Shown here in pieces: positions 21,177 to 39,128 of a stretch of 64,000 nt of DNA. The first letter of the stretch is position 1, and every line of letters begins with the position of its first letter. The notes below the pieces were generated by a model. The model did no database searches and had not been told where the DNA came from. It saw only the letters and a program-made list of their open reading frames with translations. This DNA comes from Xanthobacter autotrophicus (GTDB taxonomy: Bacteria > Pseudomonadota > Alphaproteobacteria > Rhizobiales > Xanthobacteraceae): the NCBI RefSeq assembly GCF_029991245.1, contig NZ_JAIVFO010000002.1, positions 1 through 64,000 on the forward strand. Reading direction: 5' to 3'. Position numbers and translations under genes: made by a program.

Positions 21177-21180
21177 GATG

Positions 21181-21576
21181 TTATCGAGCCTCGCCGGGTT
21201 CGGGCGCCATCAGGGGCGCTGTTTCCTTGCGGATGTGCTCGTCTTCGGCCGGCGCGGCCGGCGCCGAATTCTCGTTCTGTCGGGGCGCCTGCGGGGGCTC
21301 GGGCAAGCGCTCGGCGGGGCGTGCGCCGGGGGCGAGGAAGCGCTCGCGGTTTTGTGCCCAGGCGCGCAGACATGCCGCGTCGCGCGTGCCCGCCTCGCCG
21401 AGGAACTGGCAACGGATCAGCTCGTCCCGAAGCGGATCGACCGAGACGCTCTCGGTCGGACGCGCGGACGGAGAAACCGGCGCTTCTTCCTTCCGGGTCA
21501 GCTCGATCGCGGTCGCCGTAATGGCGACCGCGACGAACACGACAGCGCCGAGCCGGGCGAACATCTTTCCGTCCAT
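21181..21576 (-). CDS. TrbK-type entry-exclusion/conjugation protein
   Basis: This 131-aa product has an N-terminal membrane helix (ARLGAVVFVAVAITATAIEL) followed by a periplasmic segment with two cysteines (LIRCQFLGEAGTRDAACLRA) and an acidic Pro-rich tail. Position between trbJ and trbL and the CQFLGE...CLRAW pattern fit the putative entry exclusion protein TrbK-alt. Start ATG 21576 has GGAG upstream. An exclusion role is known for TrbK of RP4 and is only inferred here. Confidence 0.85.
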   Translation of the reverse strand: MDGKMFARLGAVVFVAVAITATAIELTRKEEAPVSPSARPTESVSVDPLRDELIRCQFLGEAGTRDAACLRAWAQNRERFLAPGARPAERLPEPPQAPRQNENSAPAAPAEDEHIRKETAPLMAPEPGEAR

Positions 21577-21586
21577 CGCTCCGCCC

Positions 21587-24783: not shown

Positions 24784-24793
24784 GGCAGGACCT

Positions 24794-25072
24794 TCAGACG
24801 CTCAGGTGGCCGGGGATGCGCAGATGCCGGCGCACGACATCGACGAACATCGGATCGCGCTTGGCCGCCCAGACGGCGGCGAAATGCCCAACCACCCAAA
24901 GGCCCAGGCCGACCAGCCAGAGGCGCAGGCCTAAGCCGAGTGCCGCGGCCAGCGTGCCGTTGAGGATGGCGATCGCGCGCGGCGCTCCGCCGAGCAGGAT
25001 GTGCTCGGTCAGCGCCCGGTGAACCGGCACGGTGAATCCGGGGACGGGCTCTTCTCCGGCAAACAGGGCCAT
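24794..25072 (-). CDS. trbD: TrbD, VirB3-like T4SS protein
   Basis: The 92-aa protein has a conserved N-terminus (PGFTVPVHRALTEHILLGGA), two closely spaced membrane helices (AILNGTLAAALGLGLRLWLV and LGLWVVGHFAAVWAA) and the terminal MFVDVVRRHLRIPGHLSV typical of TrbD/VirB3. Its ATG shares one base with the trbC stop (TGATG). It acts with TrbE at the inner membrane. Confidence 0.95.
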   Translation of the reverse strand: MALFAGEEPVPGFTVPVHRALTEHILLGGAPRAIAILNGTLAAALGLGLRLWLVGLGLWVVGHFAAVWAAKRDPMFVDVVRRHLRIPGHLSV

Positions 25073-25404
25073 CAGACGAGCGCCCCGCCGCCGAAGGAGA
25101 AGAAGCTCAGGAAGAACGAACTGGCGGCGAAGGCGATCGATAGCCCGAACACGATCTGGATCAGCTTGCGGGCGCCGCCCGACGTGTCGCCGAAGGCGAG
25201 CGTCAGGCCGGTGATGATGATGATCATCACCGCGATGATCTTGGAGACAGGGCCTTCGATCGACTCCAGTATCTTCTGAAGAGGGGCTTCCCACGGCATG
25301 GAGGAGCCGGCGGCGTGAGCGGCGGGCGCCATCATCATGCTGACGAAGGTGACAGAGGCGACCGTCGCGATGTGACGACGAAGGCGCAGAGCGTGACGGA
25401 TCAT
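25072..25404 (-). CDS. trbC: TrbC, VirB2-like pilin
   Basis: This 110-aa pre-pilin has a leader (TVASVTFVSMMMAPAAHA), then two hydrophobic helices (IIAVMIIIITGLTLAFGD and IVFGLSIAFAASSFFLSFFS). That is the standard TrbC/VirB2 form; TrbC pilins are trimmed and often cyclised by TraF, which is also encoded here at 32171-32716. ATG 25404 overlaps the trbB stop (ATGA). Confidence 0.94.
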   Translation of the reverse strand: MIRHALRLRRHIATVASVTFVSMMMAPAAHAAGSSMPWEAPLQKILESIEGPVSKIIAVMIIIITGLTLAFGDTSGGARKLIQIVFGLSIAFAASSFFLSFFSFGGGALV

Positions 25405-26384
25405 GAAGGATCTCCTGTGTGGCCGGGGGCTGCGGGGATGACGCGGTAGTCGCCGTCGGGACCGAGGCCGTCGACACGGGCGAGTTCCACGAGGCGGCGG
25501 TGCGAGCCGCGGCCGGCGAGGACGGCGACGAGATCGATGGTCTCGGCGATCAGCGCGCGCGGGACCGTGACGACCGCTTCCTGGATCAGTTGCTCCATCC
25601 GGCGCAGCGCGCCGATCGCCGAGCCGGAATGGATCGTGCCGACGCCGCCGGGATGGCCGGTGCCCCAGGCCTTGAGGAGATCGAGGGCTTCGGCGCCCCG
25701 GACCTCGCCGATCGGAATGCGGTCGGGGCGCAAGCGCAGCGAGGAGCGCACCAGATCCGACAGCGAGGCGACGCCGTCCTTGGTGCGCAGAGCGACCAGG
25801 TTCGGCGCGGCGCATTGCAGCTCGCGGGTGTCCTCGATGAGCACGACGCGGTCGTCGGTCTTGGCGACCTCGGCCAGGAGCGCGTTGGTGAGCGTGGTCT
25901 TGCCGGTCGATGTGCCGCCGGCGACCAGGATGTTCTTTCGCTCAGTGACCGCGATGCGCAGCGTCTCGGCCTGGCCCTCATTCATGATGCCGGCGGCGAC
26001 ATAATCATCGAGGGTGAAGACGGCGACGGCCGGCTTGCGGATGGCAAAGGCCGGGGCTGTAACGACTGGGGGCAACAGCCCCTCGAACCGCTCTCCCGTT
26101 TCGGGTAGCTCCGCTGAGACGCGCGGCGAACCGGCATGAACCTCCGCGCCGACATGGTGGGCGACGAGGCGGACGATGCGTTCGCCGTCGGCCGGGGACA
26201 GCCGCTCACCCGTGTCGGACAGACCTTCGGAGAGCCGGTCGATCCAGAGTCGCCCGTCGGGGTTGAGCATCACCTCGACGACGCTGGGGTCTTCCAGAAA
26301 CCGGGCGATCGCGGGGCCGAGGGCGGTGCGCAACATGCGCGCGCCTCGGAGTGTCGCCTCGGATTGCTGGTGAGAAGCCGCCAT
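25401..26384 (-). CDS. trbB: TrbB, VirB11-family T4SS ATPase
   Basis: The 327-aa hexameric ATPase shows Walker [11 protein letters not shown] near residue 155, the Asp box region [11 protein letters not shown], Walker [15 protein letters not shown] and the His box [11 protein letters not shown]. It energises pilus biogenesis and DNA transfer at the cytoplasmic face. It is the first gene of the trb operon on the minus strand. A 167-base gap separates it from the ribbon-helix-helix gene upstream, where the operon promoter probably lies. Confidence 0.97.
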
Positions 26385-26551
26385 GTCGTCCCCTTGCGTT
26401 CAGGGACCGTTCGGCCGGCCCGGGATCGGGGATCAGTAGAAGAGGCAGGAAATGGGGCGTTGCAACAACCAGAGTATGGTCATCGTAGCCTGGCGTAGAA
26501 ATACAGGGGAACGGCGGAACGTCCGAATACTTGAGATCGATTGGGTGAAGA

Positions 26552-26986
26552 CTATTCGGCCTCGTCGGCGCCGGGAACGTCTTCGGAAATCTCCTGCCGG
26601 AGCTTCGGGCCTTTGGCGAGTCGGCGGGCGAGCGCGACGACGAAGGCGTCATAGCGCTCGCCCGCCTTGGCGCGAGCGGCGGCCTGCGCGGGTTCCGGCA
26701 GCGGCGGGTTGGTGGTCAGCCAGAACCGCACGAACACGGCCAGCGTCTCGACCGAGATGCCGAGGTCGCGTTCCATCCGGGTCATGCGGCGGTCGAGCTG
26801 GTCGAGGCGCTTGGTGGTCGCCGCCTCCTGGCGATCTGCGGCGTCCGGCGACAGGAAGGAGGCAATGGCCGCCTCGGCGATCAGCGAGCGCGACTGATCC
26901 CGCCGCGCGGCGTAGTCGGCCAGGTTCTTCATCACGTCGGGGTCGACATAGACGGACAGGCGCTGTTTCTTCGGGGTCTTGATCAT
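26552..26986 (-). CDS. CopG/ribbon-helix-helix regulator between traG and trbB
   Basis: The 144-aa protein has an N-terminal ribbon-helix-helix (QRLSVYVDPDVMKNLADYAA, RRDQSRSLIAEAAIASFL), then a coiled-coil-like stretch (TKRLDQLDRRMTRMERDLGI) and a C-terminal helical region. A CopG-type gene at this position is standard in Tn4371-like and alphaproteobacterial trb elements. ATG 26986 is preferred over 26998, which overlaps the traG stop. It likely binds DNA near the trb or traG promoter. Confidence 0.88.
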   Translation of the reverse strand: MIKTPKKQRLSVYVDPDVMKNLADYAARRDQSRSLIAEAAIASFLSPDAADRQEAATTKRLDQLDRRMTRMERDLGISVETLAVFVRFWLTTNPPLPEPAQAAARAKAGERYDAFVVALARRLAKGPKLRQEISEDVPGADEAE

Positions 26987-26994
26987 GGCCGGCC

Positions 26995-28989
26995 TCATAG
27001 ATCGACGCCGTCGCCGGGATCGAGCGACGCCTGACGGGCGACCTGGCGCATGGTCCGATCCATCCGGCTGATGCGGGCGGTGTCGTCCTCGATGTCGTCG
27101 GCGGGGTCGGGTGAGAACTCGTTGTCGATCGGCTCTCTCTTTTCGATGGTCTTCGCCTTGTTCAATTCGGGCTGGTGGCGACGCTCCGAATCCGTGGGAT
27201 CGTCGTCATTTTCCCGTGCGTCTCGCGGCTCCTGCTCCTGCTCTTCGATCGCGAGACGCGGTGGCAGCGGCAGAGCGCTCCAGTCGTCGGGTTTCGCGTT
27301 CTTCGGTTTGGTGAGCACGGGCGGCGGCAGGATGCGTTCCTGGAGTCTCGCATCCTCGTAGTAGCGCGCCTTCTTCGCCAGGATCGGCGGGGCGCCCGCC
27401 ACCATGACGATCTCGTCCGCGGGCGGAAGCTGCATCACTTCCCCCGGCGTCAGCAATTGTCGCGCGGTTTCGGAACGCGAGACCATCAGATGACCGAGCC
27501 AGGGCGAGAGCCGATGGCCGGCATAGTTCTTCATCACCCGCATCTCGGTCGCGGCGCCGAGTGCGTCGGACACCCGCTTGGCGGTGCGCTCGTCGTTGGT
27601 CGCGAAACTCACACGGACATGGCAGTTGTCGAGGATCGAGTTGTTCGGGCCATAGGCCTTCTCGATCTGGTTCAGCGATTGCGCGATCAGGAACGCCTTC
27701 AGACCGTATCCCGCCATGAAGGCCAGCGCGGACTCGAAGAAGTCGAGGCGGCCGAGCGCCGGAAATTCGTCGAGCATGAGGAGCACCCGATGCCGATCCG
27801 CCCTTGCATGAAGATCCTCGGTGAGCCGTCGCCCGATCTGGTTGAGGATCAGGCGGATCAGCGGCTTGGTGCGGTTGATGTCGGATGGCGGCACCACGAG
27901 GTAGAGTGTGGCGGGGCGCGCGGCGCCGACAATATCGCTGATGCGCCAATCGCAGCGCCGCGTCACCTCGGCCACCACGGGATCGCGATAGAGGCCGAGG
28001 AACGACATGGCGGTGGAGAGGACGCCGGATCGTTCGTTGTCGGATTTGTTCAGGAGCTCACGCGCGGCGCTGGCGATGACGGGATGCGTGCCGGCTTCGC
28101 CGAGATGCGCCGTCTTCATCATGGCGGCGAGCGTGGATTCGATCGGGCGCTTGGGGTCAGAGAGGAAGCCCGCGACGCCAGCCAGCGTCTTGTCGGTCTC
28201 CGCGTAGAGGACATGGAGGATGGCGCCGACGAGAAGCGCGTGGCTGGTCTTTTCCCAGTGATTGCGCTTCTCCAGTGAGCCCTCGGGGTCGACCAGGATG
28301 TCGGCGATGTTCTGGACGTCGCGCACCTCCCATTCGCCGCGGCGCACCTCCAGCAGTGGATTATAGGCCGACGATTTCGCATTGGTCGGATCGAACAGCA
28401 GCACCCGGCCATGCTTTGCACGGAAGCCGGCGGTGAGCTGCCAGTTCTCCCCTTTGATGTCGTGGACGATCGCCGAGCCGGGCCAGGTCAAGAGCGATGG
28501 CACCACGAGGCCGACGCCCTTGCCGCTCCTCGTCGGGGCGAAACACAGCACATGCTCCGGCCCGTCGTGACGGAGATAGGCGCGATCGAGCTTGCCGAGC
28601 ACCACGCCGTCTGGACCGAGCAGCCCCGCGCTCTTCACCTCGTCGGGGCGAGCCCATCGCGCCGAGCCATAGGTCTGGACGTTCTTCGCCTCGCGGGCGC
28701 GCCAGACCGACATACCGATGGCGACGGCAATCGAGATGAAGCCACCTGACGCTGCGATATAGGCGCCCTCGACGAAGATCGACGGCGCATAGGCGTCGTA
28801 GAAATACCACCACCAGAAAAACGCCGGGGGATAGTAGACGGGAATCCCAATCAGCCTGAACCATGGCTCGCCGAGCTGCGGCTGAAAGCCGAGCTGCCAG
28901 GCCGTCCACTGCGTCGCCGCCCAGGTCGTGAACAGCACGATCAGGACGACGGTGAGAACTTGGCCCCAAAGGATTTTCGTGGCGGACAT
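26995..28989 (-). CDS. traG: TraG, VirD4-type coupling protein
   Basis: This 664-aa inner-membrane ATPase delivers the relaxase-DNA complex to the T4SS. Two or three N-terminal membrane helices occupy residues 1-95, followed by Walker A APTRSGKGVGLVVPSLL near 151 and Walker B LLMLDEFPALGRL near 403, then FLIAQSLNQIEKAYG. The C-terminus is acidic (PADDIEDDTARISRMD). The relaxase gene lies 35 bases upstream. Confidence 0.97.
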   Translation of the reverse strand: MSATKILWGQVLTVVLIVLFTTWAATQWTAWQLGFQPQLGEPWFRLIGIPVYYPPAFFWWWYFYDAYAPSIFVEGAYIAASGGFISIAVAIGMSVWRAREAKNVQTYGSARWARPDEVKSAGLLGPDGVVLGKLDRAYLRHDGPEHVLCFAPTRSGKGVGLVVPSLLTWPGSAIVHDIKGENWQLTAGFRAKHGRVLLFDPTNAKSSAYNPLLEVRRGEWEVRDVQNIADILVDPEGSLEKRNHWEKTSHALLVGAILHVLYAETDKTLAGVAGFLSDPKRPIESTLAAMMKTAHLGEAGTHPVIASAARELLNKSDNERSGVLSTAMSFLGLYRDPVVAEVTRRCDWRISDIVGAARPATLYLVVPPSDINRTKPLIRLILNQIGRRLTEDLHARADRHRVLLMLDEFPALGRLDFFESALAFMAGYGLKAFLIAQSLNQIEKAYGPNNSILDNCHVRVSFATNDERTAKRVSDALGAATEMRVMKNYAGHRLSPWLGHLMVSRSETARQLLTPGEVMQLPPADEIVMVAGAPPILAKKARYYEDARLQERILPPPVLTKPKNAKPDDWSALPLPPRLAIEEQEQEPRDARENDDDPTDSERRHQPELNKAKTIEKREPIDNEFSPDPADDIEDDTARISRMDRTMRQVARQASLDPGDGVDL

Positions 28990-29024
28990 CGTGTTGGTCC
29001 CTTCTGTTCCAGATGACGGGCGGG

Positions 29025-30764
29025 CTACAGTCCCAGCCCGCGTTTGCGGCCGAAGCTCCAGTCGATGCCGCCGTCGCCGCGGGCGATGCCGGAAACGTGG
29101 CGACCGAGTTGCTTTTCGAGTGACGGTGACCAGGGCACGAGCTGGAAGCCGAGCCCGTCGTCGATCATCGCGTACCGGCCGGACGCGAGCGCGAAACGCT
29201 GCCGATAAGTGCCGGCGACATACTCACCATTCGCGGATCGGCCGAGCGTCCGTCCGGTCTCGGCGGCAAGCTTCTCGCCGAGGGCTTCAACATCGCGGCG
29301 ACGAAGCGTGTCGATGAGGTTGCGCGCGAAGATCACGCCGCGCCCCTGGCGCTCGGCGAAACCCTGTTCGATCAGATGCTCCGCGCGTCGATCCAGGGCG
29401 CCGCTCACCTCCGCCCCGAATCCCCCGCCGCCGAGCGCGACGGGCTCGCGGGCGATCGCCTGCCGATCAAGCCAGGTCGCGCCTGTCGCAGAAATCTGAC
29501 GTTCGATGGAGAGATCGGAGCGGACTGCGAGCGCCACGCGTCGTCGCCCCTGCGCATCGTCGAACTTGCGCAGTTCGACGATGGAGCCCGGCGCACTGTC
29601 GCCAGCGGCGTCGAGGTCGGGCAGCTTGATGTGATGGGTGCGGCCGTCGACGCCGTCGACCACGGCATAGGCCGTGCCCTTCAACTCGTCGTCGAGGCCG
29701 CGATCGACCAGACGCCCGATAACCGGATCGTCGAGGCTCTCGCCGGCCAGCACATAGCTCGACGCACCACGTTCGATGCCCCGCTCGGTGAGCCCGCGAT
29801 GGATGCGCTTGATGATGTCGCCGCGCTCGCCGAGTTCGCGTAGCGTCGCCTCGGCGTTCTCCGCCATCACCCATTGGCCCGGGCCGATCTGGTCGGCGAG
29901 GCCGAGGGATTCGAGCTTGCGTAGCCGGCCGACCTTGAGCGCATGGAATTCGTCGGGCTGGCGATCAGCGCGCGGGGCGAGATCGACGGCGCCGGTGCGG
30001 TAGCTGTCGCGCGCGAGCTGGCGGTCAAGATTGGTCCAGCGCTCGCTATCGATCTGGCGTTCGAGTGTCCGGCGGATTTCCTGATCGGTGCGCGGACCCA
30101 ACTCCTGGGTGATCAGATCCTGGGCGCGAGCCCGCATGCCCTCCTTGATGTAGTCGCGGGAGATGACGAGGTCCTGGCCATCATCGGCGCGGCCCCGCAC
30201 GATGACGTGGATATGCGGATGCTCGGTGTTCCAGTGATCGACGCCGACCCAATCCAGTTTCGTGCCGAGATCCTTCTCCATCTGACCCATGAGGTCGCGG
30301 GTGAAGGTCTTGAGGTCCGACATCTCCACCGCATCCTCGGGCGAGACGATGAACCGGAAATGATGCCGGTCGTCCTCGCACCGCTCCGCGAAACCCTTCG
30401 CATCGACGTCGTCGGCTTCCGGGCCGAACAGATGGGCCTTCTCTCCATCACGGGTGACGCCTTCGCGCTTCAGATATCCAAGATGGGCGGCGAGCGGCGC
30501 GGACCGGGCCGAATGCCGGACCACACGGGTCTTGATGACGGCGCCCCGCGAACGGCTGGTCAGCAGCCGGTTGGCCTGGACGCTGGCGCGCACGCCACGT
30601 CCGAAGCGCGAGCGATTGCCGGAGGTGATCTTGCCGGAGCGGGAGACACGGCCGCCGGCCTTCTGGGCGGCGGCGAGCGCCTGGGCGATGAAGGGCCGCG
30701 CGCGCTGATTGCCGGATGAGCGGATGCGGCCAGGCCGGATGCGGAAATCGTCCTCGCCGCTCAT
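29025..30764 (-). CDS. VirD2-like relaxase with DUF3363 domain
   Basis: The 579-aa protein nicks the origin of transfer and pilots the strand. The N-terminal domain (to about residue 260) contains the helical/strand signature VSPEDAVEMSDLKTFTRDLM, and the metal-binding histidines lie in the HPHIHVIVRG motif near 195 with DRHHFRFIVS before it; RDYIKEGMR supplies a nearby tyrosine. The remainder is DUF3363 (DRQLARDSYRTGAVDLAPRA, HHIKLPDLDAAG, EKQLGRHVSGIARGDGGIDW). ATG 30764 is chosen because family members start with the same MSxxDDFRIRPGRIR pattern. Confidence 0.94.
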   Translation of the reverse strand: MSGEDDFRIRPGRIRSSGNQRARPFIAQALAAAQKAGGRVSRSGKITSGNRSRFGRGVRASVQANRLLTSRSRGAVIKTRVVRHSARSAPLAAHLGYLKREGVTRDGEKAHLFGPEADDVDAKGFAERCEDDRHHFRFIVSPEDAVEMSDLKTFTRDLMGQMEKDLGTKLDWVGVDHWNTEHPHIHVIVRGRADDGQDLVISRDYIKEGMRARAQDLITQELGPRTDQEIRRTLERQIDSERWTNLDRQLARDSYRTGAVDLAPRADRQPDEFHALKVGRLRKLESLGLADQIGPGQWVMAENAEATLRELGERGDIIKRIHRGLTERGIERGASSYVLAGESLDDPVIGRLVDRGLDDELKGTAYAVVDGVDGRTHHIKLPDLDAAGDSAPGSIVELRKFDDAQGRRRVALAVRSDLSIERQISATGATWLDRQAIAREPVALGGGGFGAEVSGALDRRAEHLIEQGFAERQGRGVIFARNLIDTLRRRDVEALGEKLAAETGRTLGRSANGEYVAGTYRQRFALASGRYAMIDDGLGFQLVPWSPSLEKQLGRHVSGIARGDGGIDWSFGRKRGLGL

Positions 30765-31008
30765 GGCAGGGAACCCGCACATCGCGCAAAAGCCCTGAAA
30801 TCCTTATGAAAACGCGGAAGCCGCAGGCTGCGCCAGTCAGGCGTGCCTCGCGAAATCGTCGCGTAAACCCTTGAAAACACACGACCGAACCAAGGCGCAC
30901 ATCGCGCCCTTTTATCCCGCCATCTCCCGGTCGTGTTCCCAGCCTTCCACCTCCGCGCCCTCCATGACACGCCATGACACGCCAGACCCGGAATCCAGGA
31001 TGATCGAC
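30765..31008. other. intergenic region upstream of the relaxase, candidate oriT
   Basis: This 244-base gap between the relaxase start and the transglycosylase stop is A-rich relative to its surroundings. It contains an inverted repeat CGCGA-AATCG-TCGCG (30849-30863), and further along CCATGACACG occurs twice in tandem. Origins of transfer commonly sit next to the relaxase gene and carry such repeats. No nick-site consensus was recognised, so this is a location-based guess. Confidence 0.35.
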
Positions 31009-31773
31009 TCATCGCGGACCTTCCTCGCCGGATCGCGCAACGAACATGCCGTTTGACCGCGGCGTGGTGGTGGAAGAATCGCGAACATGTGCCGTAGCCA
31101 GATCGTCGCCGGATCGACGATTGGGCTGCTCAGGATCGGCGGTCGATGGGCGTTCGGACTGCCCGACGAAGAGCGGCGCTCGTGTCCACGAAAGCGGGTC
31201 GGCGACAGCGACCCTGATAGCGCCGGAAAGATCTTCACCGCCGACAAAGGGCGCAAGTGCGGCGACATAGGCGCGTGTCTCGGCCGGCAGCGCGCGGCCC
31301 GTAGCGAGATATTCCTCGTAACGTCCGGACCCTGCATTGTAGGCTGCCAGGAAGCCGGGCGATCCGTAGCGGTCGTACATCTCGCGCAGATACGCCGCGC
31401 CCCCGAGAATGTTGTCGCGTGCGTCATAGGGATCGCCGCCGAGCCGGTGGCGGATACGCAGCTCGGCCCAGGTCGCCGGCATGATCTGCATCAGGCCCAT
31501 CGCACCTGCGGGGGACAAAGCCCGCACCTCGCCGTGGCTTTCAACCCGCATCACCGCGCGAATCCAGCCCTCCGGAATGCCGAAACGCTGCGAGGCCTCG
31601 GCGATGATCACCGCGTAAGGGTCGGCGATAGCGGCCCGTTCGATCGGGGCACTCTGCGCCAGCGTGGCGGCAGGCAAAGCGGCGATCGAAAGAAGGCCGG
31701 AAAGGAGAAGGAGGGCGGAACGGCGGGCGACCTTGGGACCGCCGGCGGCGGAGCGGTGGTGAGTGATCGGCAT
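31009..31773 (-). CDS. lytic transglycosylase (SLT/GH23), conjugation-associated
   Basis: This 254-aa exported enzyme locally opens peptidoglycan for the T4SS, a VirB1-like role. It has a signal peptide (ALLLLSGLLSIAALPAATLA), the catalytic Glu in AVMRVESHGEVRALSP, GAMGLMQIMPATWAELR and AAYNAGSGRYEEYLATGR, all in order. ATG 31773 gives the leader at the N-terminus. It begins five bases after the DUF736 stop, so the two are cotranscribed. Confidence 0.94.
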   Translation of the reverse strand: MPITHHRSAAGGPKVARRSALLLLSGLLSIAALPAATLAQSAPIERAAIADPYAVIIAEASQRFGIPEGWIRAVMRVESHGEVRALSPAGAMGLMQIMPATWAELRIRHRLGGDPYDARDNILGGAAYLREMYDRYGSPGFLAAYNAGSGRYEEYLATGRALPAETRAYVAALAPFVGGEDLSGAIRVAVADPLSWTRAPLFVGQSERPSTADPEQPNRRSGDDLATAHVRDSSTTTPRSNGMFVARSGEEGPR

Positions 31774-31777
31774 GGCG

Positions 31778-32128
31778 TCACTCCCGCTCGCCGCGCTTGG
31801 GCGGACGATTCCAGTGCAGCGACCACGATGCTTTGTCGGCGTCGGAGCGGAACAGGTTGGCGCGGATCGGCTGCATGAAGACGGGATCGTCGAGCAGCAG
31901 CGAGAGGTATTCGCCAGCCTTCTCTCCGGTGCGCTTCCAGGCGGCTCCAACCTCTGGGCCGACCTCCGACCCATCGCCGTCGTCGCCGAGGTGAACGCGG
32001 TAATCCGGCGCGTTCTCGGCATCGGACGGATCGGCCGGAACGAGGGCGAGCCGCACGTCAAGAGTGAGCGTGCGGACGTGGCCGGAATATCCGGACTTCG
32101 TGCGGGTGAACTCTCCGATCTGTGGCAT
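31778..32128 (-). CDS. DUF736 protein (first copy)
   Basis: The 116-aa protein matches DUF736: IGEFTRTKSGYSGHVRTLTL at the start, then APDYRVHLG, EVGAAWKRTGEKAGEYLSLL and DPVFMQPIRANLF. These small acidic proteins are frequent in alphaproteobacterial conjugative elements and have no established function. ATG 32128 follows AAAGGA. A second copy occurs at 37456-37776 with about the same layout but clearly different sequence. Confidence 0.9.
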   Translation of the reverse strand: MPQIGEFTRTKSGYSGHVRTLTLDVRLALVPADPSDAENAPDYRVHLGDDGDGSEVGPEVGAAWKRTGEKAGEYLSLLLDDPVFMQPIRANLFRSDADKASWSLHWNRPPKRGERE

Positions 32129-32170
32129 TGGTGTTCCTTTCTGCGGTGGGGTTGATGAAATCCGGGCCAA

Positions 32171-32716
32171 TCAATGGGTCGGAGCGCGCCATTCGTAGCG
32201 GCCGGTCCCGTCCTCGTCGGTCCAGAGCGGGGTGGCGCGGCCGATGATCGAGCTGGCTTGAAGCGGCCCGAAGTAGCGGCCGTCGAGGCTGTCGCGGACG
32301 TCCCAGTTCATGAGGAAGACCTCGCCGCTGAGGATGCGGCGGCACCCCCGCCAGACCGGCAACGGTCGGCCGAGCCGGTCGCGTTCGAGCGCCGTACCCA
32401 TCTCGTTGCCGTCGACGGTGATGGCGCCGCCGGTGCGGCAGACTTCTTGCCCGGGAAGGCCGACGACCCGCTTCATCAGCGGCACACCGCGCGGCAGGTA
32501 TCCGCGTTCAGCCATGAAGCCAGCCAGCGGATCGGGCGCGTCTACGGCGACCAGGTCCGTGACTTCGAGGTGCTCGGCCGGATGGATCGCATAGAGGCCG
32601 ATCGGCGTACTGGCCGATGCGTTCCAGATCAGCCTCGGCGCGACATGGACAAAGGACAGTCCACCGATCGCGAGCACGCAAAAGTACGTCGTCATGACGT
32701 AACCGAAGCGGGTCAT
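32171..32716 (-). CDS. traF: TraF, S26-family pilin-processing peptidase
   Basis: The 181-aa membrane-anchored serine protease matures the TrbC pilin. It has an N-terminal helix (MTTYFCVLAIGGLSFVHVAP), the catalytic Ser in NASASTPIGLYAI, the Lys in PLMKRVVGLPGQEVC and the late box NWDVRDSLDGRYFGPL. ATG 32716 overlaps the DUF2840 stop (ATGA). Confidence 0.95.
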   Translation of the reverse strand: MTRFGYVMTTYFCVLAIGGLSFVHVAPRLIWNASASTPIGLYAIHPAEHLEVTDLVAVDAPDPLAGFMAERGYLPRGVPLMKRVVGLPGQEVCRTGGAITVDGNEMGTALERDRLGRPLPVWRGCRRILSGEVFLMNWDVRDSLDGRYFGPLQASSIIGRATPLWTDEDGTGRYEWRAPTH

Positions 32717-33231
32717 GGCGCGACCCTCCGGCGCTGGAGCCAGGCGTCGTGGCGCTCGCGGGTGTAGGCGCGCGGTTCATGGCCGGCGCTCAGACGGTTG
32801 TGGACGTGTCGCCAATGATCGGGCGCGGCGTCGATCGGATCGACGCCGAGCGCCTCGATGGTGTCGATGAACTGGAGCACCCGCTCGACCTTCGGCCAGC
32901 CCTCGACCTTGAGCAGGATGTCACCGCCAGGTCGGACGAACGGCAGCGTCTGGAACGGCTCGCCGGATCGAACCGCGCGCACGATGTCGATGCGCGAGAT
33001 GACCGTGCCGAAGTCGTTCGCGGCCCAACGGACGAAGGCGAAGGTCGTGTTCGGGGCGAAGCCGACGATGCGCCTGCGCCGGTCGAGGATCTGTTCGTGA
33101 ACCTCGCGGCCGAACCTGATCCAGTGCTCGATCTTCTTTTCGAGCCAGGTCAGTTCGACGAGTGTGGTGAAAGGTGCGGCGACGGCCGGCAACGGGCCGC
33201 CGCGCACGCGGGGGGCCGCGTTGCCGGTCAT
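32713..33231 (-). CDS. DUF2840 protein
   Basis: The 172-aa product matches DUF2840, which is found almost only between parA and traF of trb-type elements: TLVELTWLEKKIEHWIRFG, EQILDRRRRIVGFAPNTTFA, FVRWAANDFGTVISRIDIVR, then LPFVRPGGDILLKVEGWPKV. Function unknown. It overlaps both neighbours by four bases, so it is translated as part of the repA-parA-traF operon. Confidence 0.92.
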   Translation of the reverse strand: MTGNAAPRVRGGPLPAVAAPFTTLVELTWLEKKIEHWIRFGREVHEQILDRRRRIVGFAPNTTFAFVRWAANDFGTVISRIDIVRAVRSGEPFQTLPFVRPGGDILLKVEGWPKVERVLQFIDTIEALGVDPIDAAPDHWRHVHNRLSAGHEPRAYTRERHDAWLQRRRVAP

Positions 33232-33482
33232 GGAGTGCCTCCTTGGCTCTCGGGAAATTCGCGGGCGAGCAGGTCGCGCAGCATGTCGGCGACGGTCTGA
33301 CCGCGCCCAAAGGCGGTGATCTTGATGCGGCCGCGCAACTCCGGCGTGACGTCGATCGTCAGCCGGGCGGTGAACGTCGAGGCGTCATCGCTTCGACCCG
33401 GCGCCGTCCCGGATTCCTTTATCCAGTCCTCGGCGGTGCCGGGACGTGCGGCGAAGCCGCGCTTCGGGGATCGCCCGTTCAT
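33228..33482 (-). CDS. ribbon-helix-helix protein, ParA partner candidate
   Basis: This 84-aa protein ends in a ribbon-helix-helix fold (ARLTIDVTPELRGRIKITAF, GRGQTVADMLRDLLAREFPE) behind a flexible basic N-terminus. It directly follows parA with an ATGA overlap, as ParG/ParB-type centromere-binding partners do. A partition or transcriptional role is inferred from this context. Confidence 0.85.
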   Translation of the reverse strand: MNGRSPKRGFAARPGTAEDWIKESGTAPGRSDDASTFTARLTIDVTPELRGRIKITAFGRGQTVADMLRDLLAREFPESQGGTP

Positions 33483-34117
33483 GGCGCGATCCTCCCGACC
33501 TCGGTGGCGAAGATCGCGATCTCGCGTGCCGCCGGGCTGTCCTCGTCTGTTTCAAAGACGAGGCGGCCCGATCGCGCGGCATCGGCGAAGGCGACGCGCT
33601 GGCCGATGGTCGTGGCGAGCAAGGGCGGATCGTGATCGGCGAGGGTCTCGGCTGTTTCGCGGGCGATGACGGTGCGCGTGGCGCAGCGATTCAGCACGAA
33701 GCGGGCGGCAAGCTCCGGACGGTAGATCCGCGCCTCCCGGATCAGCGACAGCATCTCGGCTGACGCCCAGCCATCGAAGGGCGACGGTTGTACGGGGATC
33801 AGCGCGAGATCGGCGGCGAGCAGCGCCGAGCGCATCAACCCGGCGATACGGGGCGGCCCGTCGATGACGACGTGATCGGCGTCACGCGCCAACTCGGGCG
33901 CTTCGCGATGCAGCGTGTCACGCGCCAGGCCGACGACACCGAACAGCCGCGGCAGACCTTCATGCGCCCGCTGTTCAGACCAGTCGAGCGCCGAACCCTG
34001 CGGGTCGGCATCGATCAGCGTGACGCGCTTTCCCGTTCTGGCCCATTGTCCGGCGAGGTGCAGCGCAAGCGTCGTCTTGCCGACGCCGCCTTTCTGATTG
34101 AGGAGGGCCACGATCAT
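33479..34117 (-). CDS. parA: ParA-family partition ATPase
   Basis: This 212-aa small ParA has the deviant Walker A NQKGGVGKTTLALHLAGQW at residues 7-25, switch I DADPQGSALDW and Walker B VVIDGPPRIAGLM. It lacks an N-terminal HTH, like plasmid type Ib ParA. In integrative elements it stabilises the excised circle. ATG 34117 overlaps the repA stop (ATGA). Confidence 0.95.
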   Translation of the reverse strand: MIVALLNQKGGVGKTTLALHLAGQWARTGKRVTLIDADPQGSALDWSEQRAHEGLPRLFGVVGLARDTLHREAPELARDADHVVIDGPPRIAGLMRSALLAADLALIPVQPSPFDGWASAEMLSLIREARIYRPELAARFVLNRCATRTVIARETAETLADHDPPLLATTIGQRVAFADAARSGRLVFETDEDSPAAREIAIFATEVGRIAP

Positions 34118-35274
34118 TGTGCCCCCCGCGGTTTGCGGTCGAAGGGCAGTTCGGGAAATACCGGGGCATCGGGGTGCGCGGCGCCGGATTTACTGAAAGA
34201 CGCGGCGTGCTTGAGTTTGCCCGATAGCCTCGATGTTCTGGCGTTACTGCCACCTTCGGCGGAGTTTTCAACAACGCCGCGCGCTCTATAAGAGTTAGAT
34301 TCTGTGTTAGATTCTAAGTTAAGGGCGCGATTTCCGCTTGCTGTCGAGGGGCTTAACCCCTGTTTTAGTTCCCGATAGCACGAGCCTGCGGTTCCCGATG
34401 GCACGATAGTTCGGGTTCCTGATAGCACGAGGCCGTCCACAGGTTTTCCACAGGGCGATGGTTCGAAGGCGAGCAGCACCCGGCCGCCGATCTGGACCTC
34501 GATGAACAGCGTGTATCCGGGCAGCGGTTGGCGGCGGACGATGTCACGCAGCTCGAAGGCAAATCGCTTGAAGGGCGAGAGGCTGCCGGACTTCAGGTAG
34601 AGATGGCGGAAGTCGAAGCGCCAGCCGGCGCGCTGGCGGCCGCCATGCTTGCGCACGATCCGATAGAGCCAGCGGTCGAGCCCGCCCGTCAGCGAAAAGT
34701 AGGCGCGGTCGATGGTGAGCACGAGGGCATCGTCGAGGACTGCCTGGTAGAACCAGTCGGGGACGATCAGTTCGATACCGGCGGGACGGCCGCGCCGGTC
34801 CGTGCGCTCGACCCATTCGTTGATCCAGGAGAAGCGGTGCCGGCGGCCTTCCGCGGGCTGGCGGATCGTCGTCGCCACCGTTGTCGATTGCAGGCGATCG
34901 AGCGCCGCCTTGAGGCGCAGGTAGTCGCGAGCGCCGACGCCACGTCCGATGAAGGTGAGGATTTCGTAGGGCGTCGCCGCCATCAGGCGCGAGGTGCGCA
35001 GCCCGGCGTCGCGCGCCTCGACGAGCTGGCTCGCGGCCCAGATCAGGATATCGGCGTCCCAGATGGTCGCCATGCCGTGATCGGGCACGGCCTCGACGCG
35101 GATGGATACGTCGCCGGCGACGAACTCGATCGGCTGGGTCCGATGGGATTTGGAGAGGCTGAAGAAGGGATAGGCCATGAGATCCTGCGCGTCTCGGGGT
35201 GCGAGATCGCCGCCGCGCGCGCGGAACAGTTCGAGCTGTCCACGTTCCGACAGGGGGCGATGGCGCACCGGCAT
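34114..35274 (-). CDS. repA: replication initiator protein A (RPA family)
   Basis: The 386-aa protein matches the plasmid RepA/RPA initiator family: PFFSLSKSHRTQPIEFVAGD, MATIWDADILIWAASQLVEA, IGRGVGARDYLRLKAALDRL, then IELIVPDWFYQAVLDDALVL and ITG-type SLTGGLDRWLYRIVRKHGGR. Tn4371-like and alphaproteobacterial ICEs carry it and some replicate autonomously after excision. The C-terminal 80 residues have lower-complexity, AT-richer DNA around 34260-34420. It is the first gene of the repA-parA-rhh-DUF2840-traF run. Confidence 0.93.
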   Translation of the reverse strand: MPVRHRPLSERGQLELFRARGGDLAPRDAQDLMAYPFFSLSKSHRTQPIEFVAGDVSIRVEAVPDHGMATIWDADILIWAASQLVEARDAGLRTSRLMAATPYEILTFIGRGVGARDYLRLKAALDRLQSTTVATTIRQPAEGRRHRFSWINEWVERTDRRGRPAGIELIVPDWFYQAVLDDALVLTIDRAYFSLTGGLDRWLYRIVRKHGGRQRAGWRFDFRHLYLKSGSLSPFKRFAFELRDIVRRQPLPGYTLFIEVQIGGRVLLAFEPSPCGKPVDGLVLSGTRTIVPSGTAGSCYRELKQGLSPSTASGNRALNLESNTESNSYRARGVVENSAEGGSNARTSRLSGKLKHAASFSKSGAAHPDAPVFPELPFDRKPRGAQ

Positions 35275-35294
35275 TGAGGGAACCGCCGCGACGG

Positions 35295-35576
35295 TCAGCG
35301 GGCGTGCCGGCCGGCAAAGGCGGGCGGCACGGTCTCTTGGCGCTTGGCGGGCAGGACGGTGCCGCGAGGATCGGAGGTCGAGGTGACGGCGCCGCGGTCG
35401 GCCCAGGCCTGCAGGTCGTCGATCGCGTAGACGACGCGCCCTCCGAGCTTGCGATAGCCGGGACCGGTCCCATAGGTCCGGTGCTTCTCCAGGGTGCGGC
35501 CGGACAGGCCCAGGAATCGGGCGGCTTCGGGAGTACGCAGGTAGCGTGGCGGCAAGCCGGCGAGATTAGGCGTCAT
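35295..35576 (-). CDS. AlpA/excisionase-like helix-turn-helix protein
   Basis: This 93-aa protein has a HTH_17-type winged helix: RYLRTPEAARFLGLSGRTLE, then GPGYRKLGGRVVYAIDDLQA. Such proteins, just upstream of repA, are conserved in these elements as excisionase or transcription factor. Its stop is 21 bases before the repA start on the same strand. It could be the directionality factor activated by the FseA-like protein encoded next to it; that is inference. Confidence 0.9.
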   Translation of the reverse strand: MTPNLAGLPPRYLRTPEAARFLGLSGRTLEKHRTYGTGPGYRKLGGRVVYAIDDLQAWADRGAVTSTSDPRGTVLPAKRQETVPPAFAGRHAR

Positions 35577-35711
35577 GATCGGGCCTCCATGCGTTTCGCT
35601 GGGGCCGCTGGCGGTTAGCGGCGGACGAAGGACATGGTGGCGAAGCAGGACAGCGCAGATGCAGTGGGAAGATTGGGGGGCCTAAATGCCCACACCAGTC
35701 GCGTGTCGGGC

Positions 35712-36290
35712 CTATGATCGACGGCGATGACGCAGAAGTTTGCGATAGCCGCCCGCGACCATGGCAAGGCCATCCTTGATCAGATCCATGGTGGCGTAGC
35801 GTTCCGGCGCGGCCTGCCATTCGTCACGGGTGGGTTTTTTCAAGCGGAAGATCACGTCGGCGATCTCCTGTTGGTTCGCGCCGTTGCGATGCCCATCGAC
35901 TGCCTGCAGCATGCGGCGCGCGCGGGCCAGTTGCTGGCGCGTGAGGCGGGTATCCGGCGGGATGGCGCGGGCGTACAGGGATTTGAGCAGCCGCGTGACG
36001 GCCTCGATGCGGCCGAAGCCATCGAGGTCGAGCGGCACGATCGCAGCGAGAGCGCCGTCGGCGGCGGCGCCAGCGAGGCGCACCACATGGAGCCGCTGGC
36101 CGTTGCCAAGATCATGCAGGGTGTGAGCGCCCTGTTCGTCGAGATACGCGGCGGCCTCGCTCAGGGTCGCGAGGACGTCGCTATCGGCTGGCAGAATGGG
36201 CGGGGCGCTCGTCAGCAGGACGGCGCCCGTATCGTCCTCCGCGGACCAGAACACCGGGGCTTCTGTGGCCTTGAGCGACGGCCTCACCGG
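35712..36290 (-). CDS. DUF2285 domain reading frame, translated through a +1 frameshift
   Basis: This frame has no good start codon of its own; it lacks a ribosome site where it opens. It encodes 192 residues from the frameshift point: VRPSLKATEAPVFWSAEDD, VLATLSEAAAYLDEQGAHTL, then IPPDTRLTRQQLARARRMLQ, with the helical DUF2285 domain at the end (GANQQEIADVIFRLKKPTRD and a GGYRKLLRHRRR tail). It continues the DUF6499 frame upstream by +1 at TTT-CCC-G. In ICEMlSymR7A the excision activator FseA is made by +1 frameshifting between two such frames, so this is probably the same kind of fused activator, here 257 aa in total. Confidence 0.75.
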   Translation of the reverse strand, partial: PVRPSLKATEAPVFWSAEDDTGAVLLTSAPPILPADSDVLATLSEAAAYLDEQGAHTLHDLGNGQRLHVVRLAGAAADGALAAIVPLDLDGFGRIEAVTRLLKSLYARAIPPDTRLTRQQLARARRMLQAVDGHRNGANQQEIADVIFRLKKPTRDEWQAAPERYATMDLIKDGLAMVAGGYRKLLRHRRRS

Positions 36291-36486
36291 GAAATCGCAA
36301 CCCCCAGCGTTGGCGAGCGCCACCGATCAATCGCTCAAGGTCGCCCGCCGGATGCGCGATTTCAGCGTAGTCGCGCTGATAGTCGTCATTGCGCCGTAGA
36401 TATTCCCAGCCGACGTCGGACGCCGTCAGATGGTCGAGGTAGTCGTAGGTCGATGAAGTTTGCCACCTGGATATATCAGGGGTCAT
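36181..36486 (-). CDS. DUF6499 domain reading frame, N-terminal half of the FseA-like activator
   Basis: ATG 36486 with AGGAGG upstream opens a frame encoding DUF6499: TPDISRWQTSSTYDYLDHLT, ASDVGWEYLRRNDDYQRDYA, then RQRWGLRFP. After residue 66 this frame runs into sequence unlike the family and stops at 36181. The DUF2285 frame carries the expected continuation. So the 101-aa zero-frame product and a 257-aa frameshift product may both exist. Alternatively the gene is simply broken by one inserted base. Confidence 0.75.
   Translation of the reverse strand: MTPDISRWQTSSTYDYLDHLTASDVGWEYLRRNDDYQRDYAEIAHPAGDLERLIGGARQRWGLRFPGEAVAQGHRSPGVLVRGGRYGRRPADERPAHSASR
36288..36294 (-). promoter_or_regulatory. 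candidate +1 programmed frameshift site TTT-CCC-G
   Basis: In the DUF6499 frame the codons read CGA TTT CCC GGT. A slip of one base forward on CCC or TTT gives RFP followed by VRPSLKA, which rejoins the conserved DUF2285 frame. CCC followed by G is a plausible +1 slip codon. Functional frameshifting is inferred from homology of the gene pair to msi172/msi171. Confidence 0.55.
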
Positions 36487-36605
36487 CTCCGTCCTCCTGG
36501 CTCGCATTATTCTTGCGTGTCGAGCCAAGTACGATCCCCGGTTGAGCAATCTGGCGGAAGTCCCCGAACCGGCAACAGGCGATGCCACAGCGGCATCGCG
36601 GCCGA

Positions 36606-36884
36606 TCAATGCTGGTGGCTCTCCCGCACGAGTTGGCGGTAGCCGTGCTCGGTCATCCAGCGGGCGCGGGCGAGATGGGTGTCGTGGATATGGCGGGCCC
36701 GTTCCGGTTCCCGACCGGGGTCGAGGCCGAACAGGATCGAGACCGCCTCACGCCAGTCGGCGCCGTCCGCCGCGGCGTCAAGCAGGCGCAGATAGAGCTT
36801 CCCGTGCTCGCGATCATAGGCCGTGAGCACCGCGCCCTCTGGTGGCTCGTCCAGGAATTTGACGTGCGTCACACCGACCCCCAT
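36606..36884 (-). CDS. short DUF2285-like protein, QseM-like antiactivator candidate
   Basis: The 92-aa product has the pattern THVKFLDEPPEGAVLTAYDR, LYLRLLDAAADGADWREAVS, ILFGLDPGREPERARHIHDT and ARARWMTEHGYRQLV, which I recognise as the short DUF2285-type protein of these ICEs. In ICEMlSymR7A a small DUF2285 protein, QseM, binds and blocks FseA and TraR. Here it lies between the XRE gene and the FseA-like pair on the same strand. A perfect hexamer inverted repeat AATTGC-N7-GCAATT (36896-36914) lies just upstream of its start. Confidence 0.7.
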   Translation of the reverse strand: MGVGVTHVKFLDEPPEGAVLTAYDREHGKLYLRLLDAAADGADWREAVSILFGLDPGREPERARHIHDTHLARARWMTEHGYRQLVRESHQH

Positions 36885-36895
36885 TGGCCAACCAT

Positions 36896-36914
36896 AATTG
36901 CCTTTGAAGCAATT
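36896..36914. promoter_or_regulatory. inverted repeat upstream of the short DUF2285 gene
   Basis: AATTGC and GCAATT are separated by seven bases, 12 bases upstream of ATG 36884. The surrounding stretch is AT-rich compared with the genes on either side and probably holds the promoter. A binding protein is not known; the XRE gene next door is the obvious candidate. Confidence 0.4.
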
Positions 36915-37007
36915 GTTAACTGTATCTCTCTTGACAGACGGAGGCCCCAGGGCCGGGAAAGTCGGACACTACGCCGCGCCCGCGAAAAGGCTTTCGCGAG
37001 CCTGATG

Positions 37008-37262
37008 TCAGGATGAGTGGCTACTTTCGATCTTGGCACGGACAAGCATCACCCCTTCGCCCTGGTCGGAGGTGAGGAAGACGATGCCGTTGCCCTCGAG
37101 CACCTTGCTGACTTGATCGCGCGTTGTTTCGTACACCTCGAGCCCGTTCTCGGACTCGAGACGCTTCAACGCGGTCAGCGATACCAGGGCCTTTTCAGCG
37201 AGCGTCTCCTGCGTCCAACCAAGCAACGCGCGCGCGGCCCGCGTTTGTCGGGCGGTGATCAT
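37008..37262 (-). CDS. XRE-family helix-turn-helix regulator, QseC-like candidate
   Basis: This 84-aa protein is nearly all HTH: ARQTRAARALLGWTQETLAE, then KALVSLTALKRLESENGLEV, with a short C-terminal strand region (GNGIVFLTSDQGEGVMLV). It resembles controller-type regulators and the XRE repressors in transfer modules. AGGAGGTGATC lies upstream of ATG 37262. Its own start codon is inside the palindrome GATCATGCATGATC and a second symmetrical site lies 37 bases upstream, suggesting autoregulation. Confidence 0.88.
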   Translation of the reverse strand: MITARQTRAARALLGWTQETLAEKALVSLTALKRLESENGLEVYETTRDQVSKVLEGNGIVFLTSDQGEGVMLVRAKIESSHSS

Positions 37263-37270
37263 GCATGATC
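37257..37270. promoter_or_regulatory. 14-bp perfect palindrome over the XRE start codon
   Basis: GATCATGCATGATC is self-complementary and includes the start codon of the XRE gene. Binding here would block translation initiation or transcription. It may also be chance from GATC and ATGCAT overlap. Confidence 0.35.
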
Positions 37271-37298
37271 ACCTCCTACAAACCCAAATGCGCACGCC

Positions 37299-37324
37299 AG
37301 AACTACGGCTAAAATAGTCGTTCT
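37299..37324. promoter_or_regulatory. operator-like inverted repeat upstream of the XRE gene
   Basis: AGAACTAC at 37299-37306 and GTCGTTCT at 37317-37324 match as inverted arms in seven of eight positions around an A/T-rich centre (GCTAAAATA). The site lies 37 bases upstream of the XRE start, where a promoter is expected, like operators of controller proteins. Confidence 0.5.
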
Positions 37325-37413
37325 TGACCGATTAGGCGAGAGGAAAGTGCGTCACAGAGCAGGTGTTTGGCGAATCACGGCCGAACTGATTCGGTCGCCC
37401 GGCAAAGAGCTTG

Positions 37414-37441
37414 GCCCCGCCCGGGGGTATCCGGGCGGGGC
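37414..37441 (-). terminator. strong GC hairpin behind the second DUF736 gene
   Basis: Arms 37414-37424 and 37431-37441 (GCCCCGCCCGG and its exact complement) enclose a six-base loop. It lies 15 bases after the DUF736 stop on the minus strand and is followed in that direction by CAAGCTCTTTG. This fits an intrinsic terminator with a short T tract. Confidence 0.7.
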
Positions 37442-37455
37442 GTTGCTGTGGTGGC

Positions 37456-37776
37456 TTATTCGCCCCGGCGACTGGGGCGGGACCAGATGAGGCTGTAGCC
37501 TTCGTCCTCGTCGTCGAAGAGGTTGGCGTAGATCGGAGCATTGAAGCTCGGGTCGTCCAGCTTCACACCCAGATAGTCGCGGCCCTCGGTGGAACGCTTG
37601 GCCCAAGCGGCGCCGATTTCAGCGCGTCCCACGAAGATCCGGTGGGAAGGGGCGTTCTCGCTGGCCTGGCTGGCCTCGGGGACGATGCGGACGCCCTTGG
37701 CCTGGACGCTGAGGGTGACGATCTCGCCGGCGAACTCGTTGGTGCTGGTCTTCTTGAAGGTGCCGATGGTGGCCAT
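37456..37776 (-). CDS. DUF736 protein (second copy)
   Basis: This 106-aa DUF736 member begins ATIGTFKKTSTNEFAGEIVT and contains APSHRIFVGRAEIGAAWAKR, GRDYLGVKLDDPSFNAPIYA and NLFDDEDEGYSLIW. GGAGA lies upstream of ATG 37776. It is distinct from the copy at 31778-32128, so both are probably old residents. A GC-rich hairpin terminates it. Confidence 0.92.
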   Translation of the reverse strand: MATIGTFKKTSTNEFAGEIVTLSVQAKGVRIVPEASQASENAPSHRIFVGRAEIGAAWAKRSTEGRDYLGVKLDDPSFNAPIYANLFDDEDEGYSLIWSRPSRRGE

Positions 37777-38379
37777 GATAAGTCTCCGTTGCTCTCTGTT
37801 TCGAGCCCGCGCCCATCGCGGCCTCGATGGCGATCGGCAGGCCGGAGGCGATCGACGGCGCATCGCTTGCGACCGCAGCGTCAGCGGAGGATGGCGACAG
37901 GCGACTTTCTTGTTTCGCGAGGAATGACGGCGCAGCCGGTAGGGGAAGAAAGTCGATCGGCGCCGTTGCGTCATAGGCGATCGAGGCTTCAGCCGTCCTT
38001 CGGCCAGATCAAGCCGTTGAGAGGCCGCAGGGGAGCGCGCGACCCGACAGAGGACCGTCAAGGGAGCTTGGCCCACCGACCTGACCCGAAAGCGGACCTG
38101 GCACGCGGCGCGCGTTGGTGATGCACCCGCTCCCGCCGGAGCCCGCGCCTGCATTGCCCTCTATCCGGCCAGCGCGTCAGACGCCCCCTCGTACCGGGTT
38201 GGTAAGCTGGGCACGATGTCGTCGAACCGCCGGGCTTCAGCCTCCACCACTTGCCGTGAAGGTGAGATGTGAAGCGGGTTCGAATCCGATTCATAGCGCC
38301 CGACAACCGCTACGCTTCCCAGGACAGGATGATGCGGCGGCGCGCCTTGTCTGGACATGCCCGTCGCCAGGATTGAGGA
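37777..38379. other. gene-free stretch with structured repeat copy 1
   Basis: No convincing coding frame is seen here on either strand; the long open frames show antisense-like composition. The only recognisable structure is the repeat at 37877-37955. The stretch between 37980 and 38380 has short inverted segments but nothing I can name. Confidence 0.55.
37877..37955 (+). repeat. structured non-coding repeat, copy 1
   Basis: The copy starts with a 21-base box (37877-37897) identical to 41074-41094: AGCGTCAGCGGAGGATGGCG plus A. Then comes the arm CGACTTTCTT (37902-37911), a GTTTCGCG box shared with copy 2, a loop of about 34 bases, and the exact complementary arm AAGAAAGTCG (37946-37955). The arm sequence differs from copy 2 but pairing is kept. 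It lies about 100 bases upstream of the DUF736 start on the minus strand. The strand of action is unknown. Confidence 0.7.
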
Positions 38380-38820
38380 TCAGCGCCGTGCGAGCGCGTG
38401 CCCGGATACCTCGGGCGGGGCCATCGCGACCAGGCGCGTCCAGGCTGTTGCGCCTACGGCGACCGCGCCGATCACCGAGAAGGCGATTTGCCAGCCTTCG
38501 GAGGGCATGGTGAGTTTGGTGAGGCCGAGCGTGGCGTGATAGCCGGCGACGGCGGCCGGAGCCGCGAAGGCGAAGGCGATCGCCAAGCGGATCCACACTG
38601 AACGGACGGACGTGAAGATGAACTGGGCCGTGCCCCACGTCACCCCGGCCGCAAAGGCGCCGATCAGCACCCCGCCAATGGGTCCGGCGCCGGTGTCGTA
38701 GGCCCATAGGCCGATGGTGACGCCGGCAAAGAACGGCAGCGCGTAAACGGCGAGCGTGAATAGAAGCCAGCAAAAGAAGCCGATGCCGGCGACTGAAGCA
38801 AGAATACCGAGGGCGATCAT
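38380..38820 (-). CDS. polytopic membrane protein, unknown
   Basis: The 146-aa protein has four to five hydrophobic helices: GILASVAGIGFFCWLLFTLA, YALPFFAGVTIGLWAY, PIGGVLIGAFAAGVTWGTAQ, LAIAFAFAAPAAVAGYH and WQIAFSVIGAVAVGATAW. GGAGA lies nine bases upstream of ATG 38820. I do not recognise the family. It lies among conjugation-element genes and could affect the mating channel or surface exclusion, but nothing in the sequence says so. Confidence 0.7.
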   Translation of the reverse strand: MIALGILASVAGIGFFCWLLFTLAVYALPFFAGVTIGLWAYDTGAGPIGGVLIGAFAAGVTWGTAQFIFTSVRSVWIRLAIAFAFAAPAAVAGYHATLGLTKLTMPSEGWQIAFSVIGAVAVGATAWTRLVAMAPPEVSGHALARR

Positions 38821-38960
38821 GAGGGTGGTCTCCGTGACAAAGGTCGAACGGTTGCGCCTCCACCACCACCGCGGCGCAATGGTGAATATAGCCGAAGATG
38901 AGCGGCGGCGGGAGCGGAAATCCGGTGGGACTTCCGCTTCCACGGCGAGGCCGGCCCCGG

Positions 38961-39128
38961 TCAGGGGGCGAAAGGATCGAACTCGTGCACGATGGCGGCT
39001 GTATCGCCGTCGTACTCGTTGGCTGGCATGACGCCGAGGCTGCCGTCGCCGGCCTGAAAGATGATGATGGCGACCATGAGGGTGGTGGCGAGGCTGAATG
39101 CGAAGGCGTGTGCGTCGTTGAGGGACAT
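38961..39128 (-). CDS. small single-helix membrane protein, unknown
   Basis: This 55-aa product reads MSLNDAHAFAFSLATTLMVA, then IIIFQAGDGSLGVMPANEYD and an acidic end. ATG 39128 has a strong AGGAG eight bases upstream. The same frame is open back to ATG 39242 (with AAGGG upstream), which would add a second hydrophobic leader (FGYACAVIAALGWTHRA), so a 93-aa form is possible. One predicted membrane helix. Function unknown. Confidence 0.6.
   Translation of the reverse strand: MSLNDAHAFAFSLATTLMVAIIIFQAGDGSLGVMPANEYDGDTAAIVHEFDPFAP

Follow-up and report, generated by a model that had tools for sequence, protein, structure and literature searches.

A probable programmed +1 ribosomal frameshift in an FseA-type activator gene of an ICE from Xanthobacter autotrophicus

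In a 64,000-nucleotide stretch of Xanthobacter autotrophicus DNA (the window), a gene divided between a DUF6499 frame and a DUF2285 frame appears, with high confidence on our part, to express an FseA-type activator of ICE excision by programmed +1 ribosomal frameshifting. Judged by its site, partners and setting, it is very probably a true +1 frameshift gene, of a known kind and homologous to FseA of ICEMlSymR7A. In excerpts describing that system, FseA (msi172-msi171) of Mesorhizobium japonicum R7A likewise joins DUF6499 to DUF2285 through a +1 frameshift, next to a UGGGGG-encoded WGL motif, and RdfS and QseM partners are present in both elements. That FseA is made by +1 frameshifting, which the sequence-only reading had cited, is stated in excerpts of PMC10359603, PMC5882170 and PMC5009743.

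Two frames and their join

The DUF6499 frame opens with an ATG (36486..36484, minus strand) 6 nt behind an AGGAGG and runs into a stop codon at 36183..36181, and its earlier description as well initiated and ending early was borne out. The companion statement that the DUF2285 frame has no start of its own held only in part: a GTG exists in that frame at 36323..36321, upstream of the slip and within the DUF6499 domain, and nothing ahead of it passes, by eye, for a convincing Shine-Dalgarno. The slip codon TTT occupies 36294..36292, the skipped C is 36291 and the A-site codon is CCC. Reading TTTC as a single Phe yielded a 257-aa DUF6499-DUF2285 protein with no internal stop, exactly as had been proposed for a +1 slip at TTT-CCC-G. 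The TTTC slip word occurs once, at residue F65 of the joined protein, and the slip site (UUU-C) directly follows the WGL motif; near the N-terminus, GWEYLRRN corresponds to the AWEFLRRN-like motif of DUF6499. The joined protein returned no NCBIfam match, and no match up to E 1 in a PDB sequence search. At the +1 frameshift of prfB a stop codon occupies the A site; the site described here has CCC in that position and does not have that layout.

We propose that the majority of ribosomes would stay in the DUF6499 frame and terminate 36 codons after the slip, leaving a short product, and that the remaining minority would move forward one base at UUU-C, where tRNA-Phe would shift its pairing from UUU to UUC as it reportedly does in R7A FseA, and so produce the 257-aa fusion. 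The fused protein would then bind DNA and activate rdfS, which begins 135 bp after the fseA stop, RdfS would direct the integrase at guaA towards excision, and the QseM homologue would bind the DUF6499 domain and block the activator. Transfer of the element would thereby be throttled through the frameshift.

Table 1. Features of the window; coordinates are window positions.
Feature	Position	Strand	Evidence or remark
guaA	5124..6761		GMP_synt_C, E 3.9e-42
Putative attL core, guaA 3' end	6747..6763	.	putative counterpart outside the window, at contig 82289..82305
Tyrosine integrase, directly after guaA	7054..8310	+	PF00589, E 3e-22
Conjugation block	16875..33231	-	Pfam scans
TrbI	16875..18092	-	
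VirB8-like	19135..19818	-	
TrbE-like	22345..24783	-	
Secretion ATPase (TrbB-like)	25401..26384	-	
TraG	26995..28989	-	recognised from sequence
DUF3363 relaxase	29025..30782	-	
SLT transglycosylase	31009..31641	-	
S26 peptidase	32171..32716	-	
DUF2840	32713..33231	-	
ParA-like ATPase	33479..34117	-	Pfam
Replication initiator RPA	34114..35274	-	Pfam
RdfS-like excisionase (HTH_17)	35295..35576	-	PDB 8dgl RdfS, E 5.4e-10
rdfS leader hairpin, pairing Shine-Dalgarno GGAGG (35588..35584)	35583..35641	-	folding, alignment, covariance model
Candidate FseA box TGGGCA-N16-TTCCCA	35665..35692	-	5/6 complementary
DUF2285 (PF10074), +1 frame after the slip	35712..36290	-	Pfam, E 1.1e-29; stop TAG 35714..35712
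DUF6499 (PF20109), zero frame of fseA-like gene	36184..36486	-	101 codons; Pfam, E 1.1e-21
+1 slip signal TGGGGG TTG CGA TTT C	36291..36306	-	sequence and conservation
21-bp palindrome GCGATGCCGCTGTGGCATCGC between qseM and fseA	36579..36599	-	sequence
QseM-like DUF2285-only ORF (antiactivator homologue)	36606..36884	-	PF10074, E 1e-7; PDB 7uqt QseM, E 8.3e-20
Small HTH_3 protein upstream of qseM	37008..37262	-	Pfam, E 3e-5
MmeI-like type IIG restriction-modification enzyme	52751..55504	+	ICE cargo
Argonaute-associated helical nuclease	59659..61203	-	adjoins Argonaute
Class II prokaryotic Argonaute	60840..63128	-	within the putative ICE

Conservation of the slip site among homologous loci

We searched whole genomes for DUF6499 in four overlapping sets. 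At least 107 of the 296 genomes from the window's family had a match, as did at least 69 of 297 from its order, at least 50 of 397 from its phylum and at least 122 of 347 from a different family in its class. The 252 loci sampled were in part the best-scoring and in part picked by hand, with unbroken or odd genes chosen on purpose, and proportions among them are not prevalences. Repeat copies of the window genome's own loci (L004, L006, L007 and L046), contig pieces (L039-L041) and RNA-model loci (L193-L198) were left out before counting. Non-redundant sets exclude loci in which no motif was located or whose joined protein was short; the split sets consist only of loci in which a W-G-x-x-F/C type motif was found, and the larger of them holds 137 loci below 80% identity.

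In this sample 193 loci were split with a +1 offset, 49 were unbroken, 9 had no DUF2285 within reach and 1 had an offset of +2. The slip tetramer of the 193 split loci was TTTC in 183, TTTT in 5 and TGTC in 2; three were missed by the script and, read by eye, proved to be TTTC (L014 and L237) and AGTC (L217), which brought TTT to 190 of 193. Phe stood at the slip in 135 of the 137 non-redundant split loci, the remaining 2 having TGT. It was encoded by TTT in all 135, against 243 of 907 Phe codons elsewhere in the genes (about 27%), and the next base was C in 130 and T in 5, never A or G. An earlier set of 104 non-redundant split loci had given the same picture, with TTT at all 102 Phe and TGT at the other 2 against a background of 26% (binomial p 3e-60, a value that ignores shared ancestry). 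Codon choice just before the slip was skewed as well: in the 104 loci, CGA made up 64 of 75 Arg codons, GGG 74 of 102 Gly codons and TTG 54 of 96 Leu codons, against backgrounds in the same genes of 10%, 13% and 12%. Among 35 non-redundant unbroken loci the motif located a Phe in 18, encoded by TTC in 13 and TTT in 5; the preference for TTT is gone in unbroken homologues. The pattern at the slip codon is not explicable by the amino acid alone.

That TTT is invariant at the slip Phe and is followed by C or T fits slipping of tRNA-Phe and strongly opposes the view that an ordinary unbroken gene was disrupted by an indel or by a sequencing error. Unbroken homologues, found in several branches, lend that alternative some support; the identical offset in 193 of 252 loci, TTT at 190 of these and the intactness of both frames in the window make it extremely improbable. 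The sequence-only reading had named homologues that are normally unbroken as the mark of such an accident, and the alignment of many loci that it proposed instead found most of them split at a conserved codon.

A second alternative is that DUF6499 and DUF2285 are translated separately, the latter from GTG 36323 or lower, and cooperate as two proteins without any frameshift. The DUF2285 frame does contain that GTG, two proteins are listed in three annotated records, and excerpts of PMC9601964 describe two cooperating proteins, with no frameshift, for Azorhizobium homologues. Set against this, separate translation leaves unexplained the TTT at every one of the 135 slip Phe codons, the C or T that follows and the TGGGGG-CGA context, and the tree of these proteins has unbroken forms arising or being lost repeatedly. 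We regard separate translation as quite unlikely. If the frameshift is accepted, annotation divides frameshifted activators into two genes.

The tree, built by a quick method from 172 proteins and containing some long branches, requires the gene to have passed between the split and the unbroken state 11 times, and well-supported branches compel 5 of these switches. The state has switched repeatedly, whether by gain or by loss. The slip is not essential, since 49 of the 252 loci have an unbroken homologue. We also considered the length of the open frame as an indicator of fusion and dropped it, as several split genes retain a long zero frame.

TTT is absent from the slip in three split loci, L055 and L008 with TGT-C and L217 with AGT-C, whose frames nevertheless stay open. 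Slipping of tRNA-Phe is impossible at these three. L008 (6820..7940) belongs to the same genome as the window, where contig C492 carries a second qseM and fseA with the slip TGT-CCC-C and both frames open. Contig C336, which opens with an rdfS leader followed by the gene itself, probably continues C492. In this second copy slipping at CCC-C could yield the same protein; the second fseA copy may instead be failing.

Farther afield, a plasmid of Paracoccus saliphilus has the same annotated gene order as the window and the slip site TTT CCC, and viral contigs contained one weak relative. According to excerpts of PMC10359603, about 61% of 4709 FseA homologues have a conserved +1 site; the window locus belongs with them, with no difference seen at the slip site. 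Our counts add nucleotide-level support, from many genomes, for the published view that ribosome slippage widely gates transfer of such ICEs.

The qseM-fseA-rdfS block and the rdfS leader

The fseA-like gene is flanked by homologues of QseM and RdfS, and together with the conserved slip codon and following base these bear out its earlier identification as an FseA-like activator gene. Excerpts of PMC10359603 report that in R7A FseA activates rdfS and binds DNA as a dimer, and that QseM binds DUF6499 and blocks FseA. The QseM-like ORF of the window has a single Pfam match, to DUF2285, and no DUF6499. The small HTH_3 protein upstream of it is a possible QseC counterpart. The palindrome between qseM and fseA could be an operator or a hairpin, and its appearance suggests an operator, possibly one that serves the HTH_3 protein; by eye, many relatives have a dyad of similar length with a third half-site behind it. 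The qseM-fseA-rdfS block would make up one compact control cassette.

Among the first 142 split loci, 97 had a QseM-like gene upstream and 104 had an RdfS-like gene downstream. A QseM-like gene was nearby in 84 of 103 non-redundant split loci versus 0 of 26 unbroken loci in the first sample, and in 104 of 136 versus 7 of 34 in the wider one. The notion that a split frame requires QseM was abandoned when the wider sample turned up 14 unbroken fseA-like genes beside a QseM-like gene (L226-L236, L238, L241 and L244). The 7 of these that are non-redundant form one branch among split genes and are natural frameshift-free versions. Allowing for common descent left only 5 well-supported independent pairs, over which QseM and the split state changed the same way in a mean of 1.7, the opposite way in 0 and were equal in 3.3, a result that was not significant.

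The frameshift might be real and the protein nevertheless regulate something besides rdfS and excision. The R7A circuit is not copied whole here: in R7A, TraR turns fseA on (excerpts of PMC10359603 and PMC5882170), and a search of the window's draft genome of 495 contigs for the LuxR-type receptor domain PF03472 gave 0 matches, with a positive control (1 of 14 genomes, E. coli). The FseA box, too, is uncertain. Excerpts of PMC10359603 describe this box as a pair of inverted hexamers separated by 15-16 bp, which in Mesorhizobium sits about 62 bp ahead of rdfS; the fseA-rdfS gap of the window offered only 5/6 candidates, with spacers of 16, 18 and 20 that overlap and score equally. In the same gap of 86 relatives, exact inverted hexamers with a 16-bp spacer were found 14 times against 1.2 expected from letter shuffles, and were enriched likewise at spacers of 14, 17 and 18. 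A different target is opposed by the RdfS-like gene downstream of fseA, present in 78 of the 102 non-redundant split loci whose sequence extended far enough and in most cases similarly spaced, and we consider another target improbable. The lack of a LuxR-type receptor domain makes a trigger other than R7A's TraR likely; judging from the draft genome, excision may be triggered differently from that of ICEMlSymR7A.

Between fseA and rdfS we found a hairpin in three parts whose 3' arm holds the rdfS Shine-Dalgarno. In the window it folded at -28.6 kcal/mol (z -3.84). Across 95 leaders the mean z was -3.0, with 67 below -2, versus -0.4 and 11 for nearby DNA. RNAalifold run on all 77 rdfS leaders returned no structure. 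For a structural alignment we used 43 of the 77, picked by eye after viewing single-sequence folds, a choice that may favour structure; the 52 leaders outside this alignment had a mean z of -2.2, with 27 below -2. On the 43, RNAalifold gave 12 pairs only, with the middle stem missing and a small covariation term (-0.46). When the structure derived from the window was imposed on them, 85.4% of cells paired and 12 of 20 pairs had two-sided changes; 0 of 500 shuffles, which ignore relatedness, reached any of five measures, and slid controls were lower. Pairing in the middle stem reached 57.6% of cells only. A covariance model, which matches on sequence together with structure, found the hairpin in 30 of 55 held-out split loci, each time (30 of 30) in the rdfS leader. 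Among 22 unbroken loci it had one match, on the other strand from fseA.

We put at about even the chance that this conserved hairpin hides the Shine-Dalgarno and so brakes excision at a second translational step. If it acts on translation, it would add a further layer of control, with a protein, a small RNA or translation of the leader perhaps serving to open it. If transcription starts as near rdfS as the box at about 62 bp suggests, part of the 5' arm would lie outside the mRNA. The window is among some copies in which a short ORF (here ATG TCC TTC GTC CGC CGC TAA) reaches into the hairpin's 5' side; a leader peptide was rejected as a candidate, being by eye not retained in all relatives. 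Rfam over 33000..39000 gave no family match and one chance-level match. The terms hairpin, stem-loop, leader and untranslated are absent from PMC11963761, and none of the matches listed in a literature search, whose range stopped short of the original 2015 frameshift paper, concerned an rdfS leader hairpin, which is apparently undescribed so far.

The element and related ICEs

The gene appears to sit in an ICE of about 75.5 kb integrated at guaA. The putative attL core at the guaA end and its counterpart are identical at 15 of 17 positions, counted by eye, and an 18-bp sequence ahead of the integrase recurs at contig 82067..82084. ICEMlSymR7A differs in being integrated at tRNA-Phe; guaA is among the sites listed for non-symbiotic Mesorhizobium ICEs in excerpts of PMC8627217. 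The position of fseA differs also, between qseM and rdfS in the window and, in excerpts of PMC5882170, in a traI2 operon in R7A. After rdfS come RPA, ParA, a small RHH protein, DUF2840, the S26 peptidase, the transglycosylase, the relaxase, TraG and the trb genes. The RdfS-like HTH_17 gene thus precedes replication initiator, DUF2840 and S26 peptidase genes in the order given in excerpts of PMC8627217, where non-symbiotic Mesorhizobium ICEs likewise have a replication initiator and DUF2840 between rdfS and traF. ICESyms lack both according to these excerpts, in contrast to the window, whose RPA and DUF2840 genes lie in the interval from rdfS to the S26 peptidase gene.

The cargo of the putative ICE includes the Argonaute, its associated nuclease and the type IIG enzyme of Table 1. 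A further piece of sequence (L039, contig C222 63000..82000) added a HipA-like protein, an AbiJ_NTD3 protein, a UvrD-like helicase beside an OLD-like ATPase, and a DUF2326 protein.
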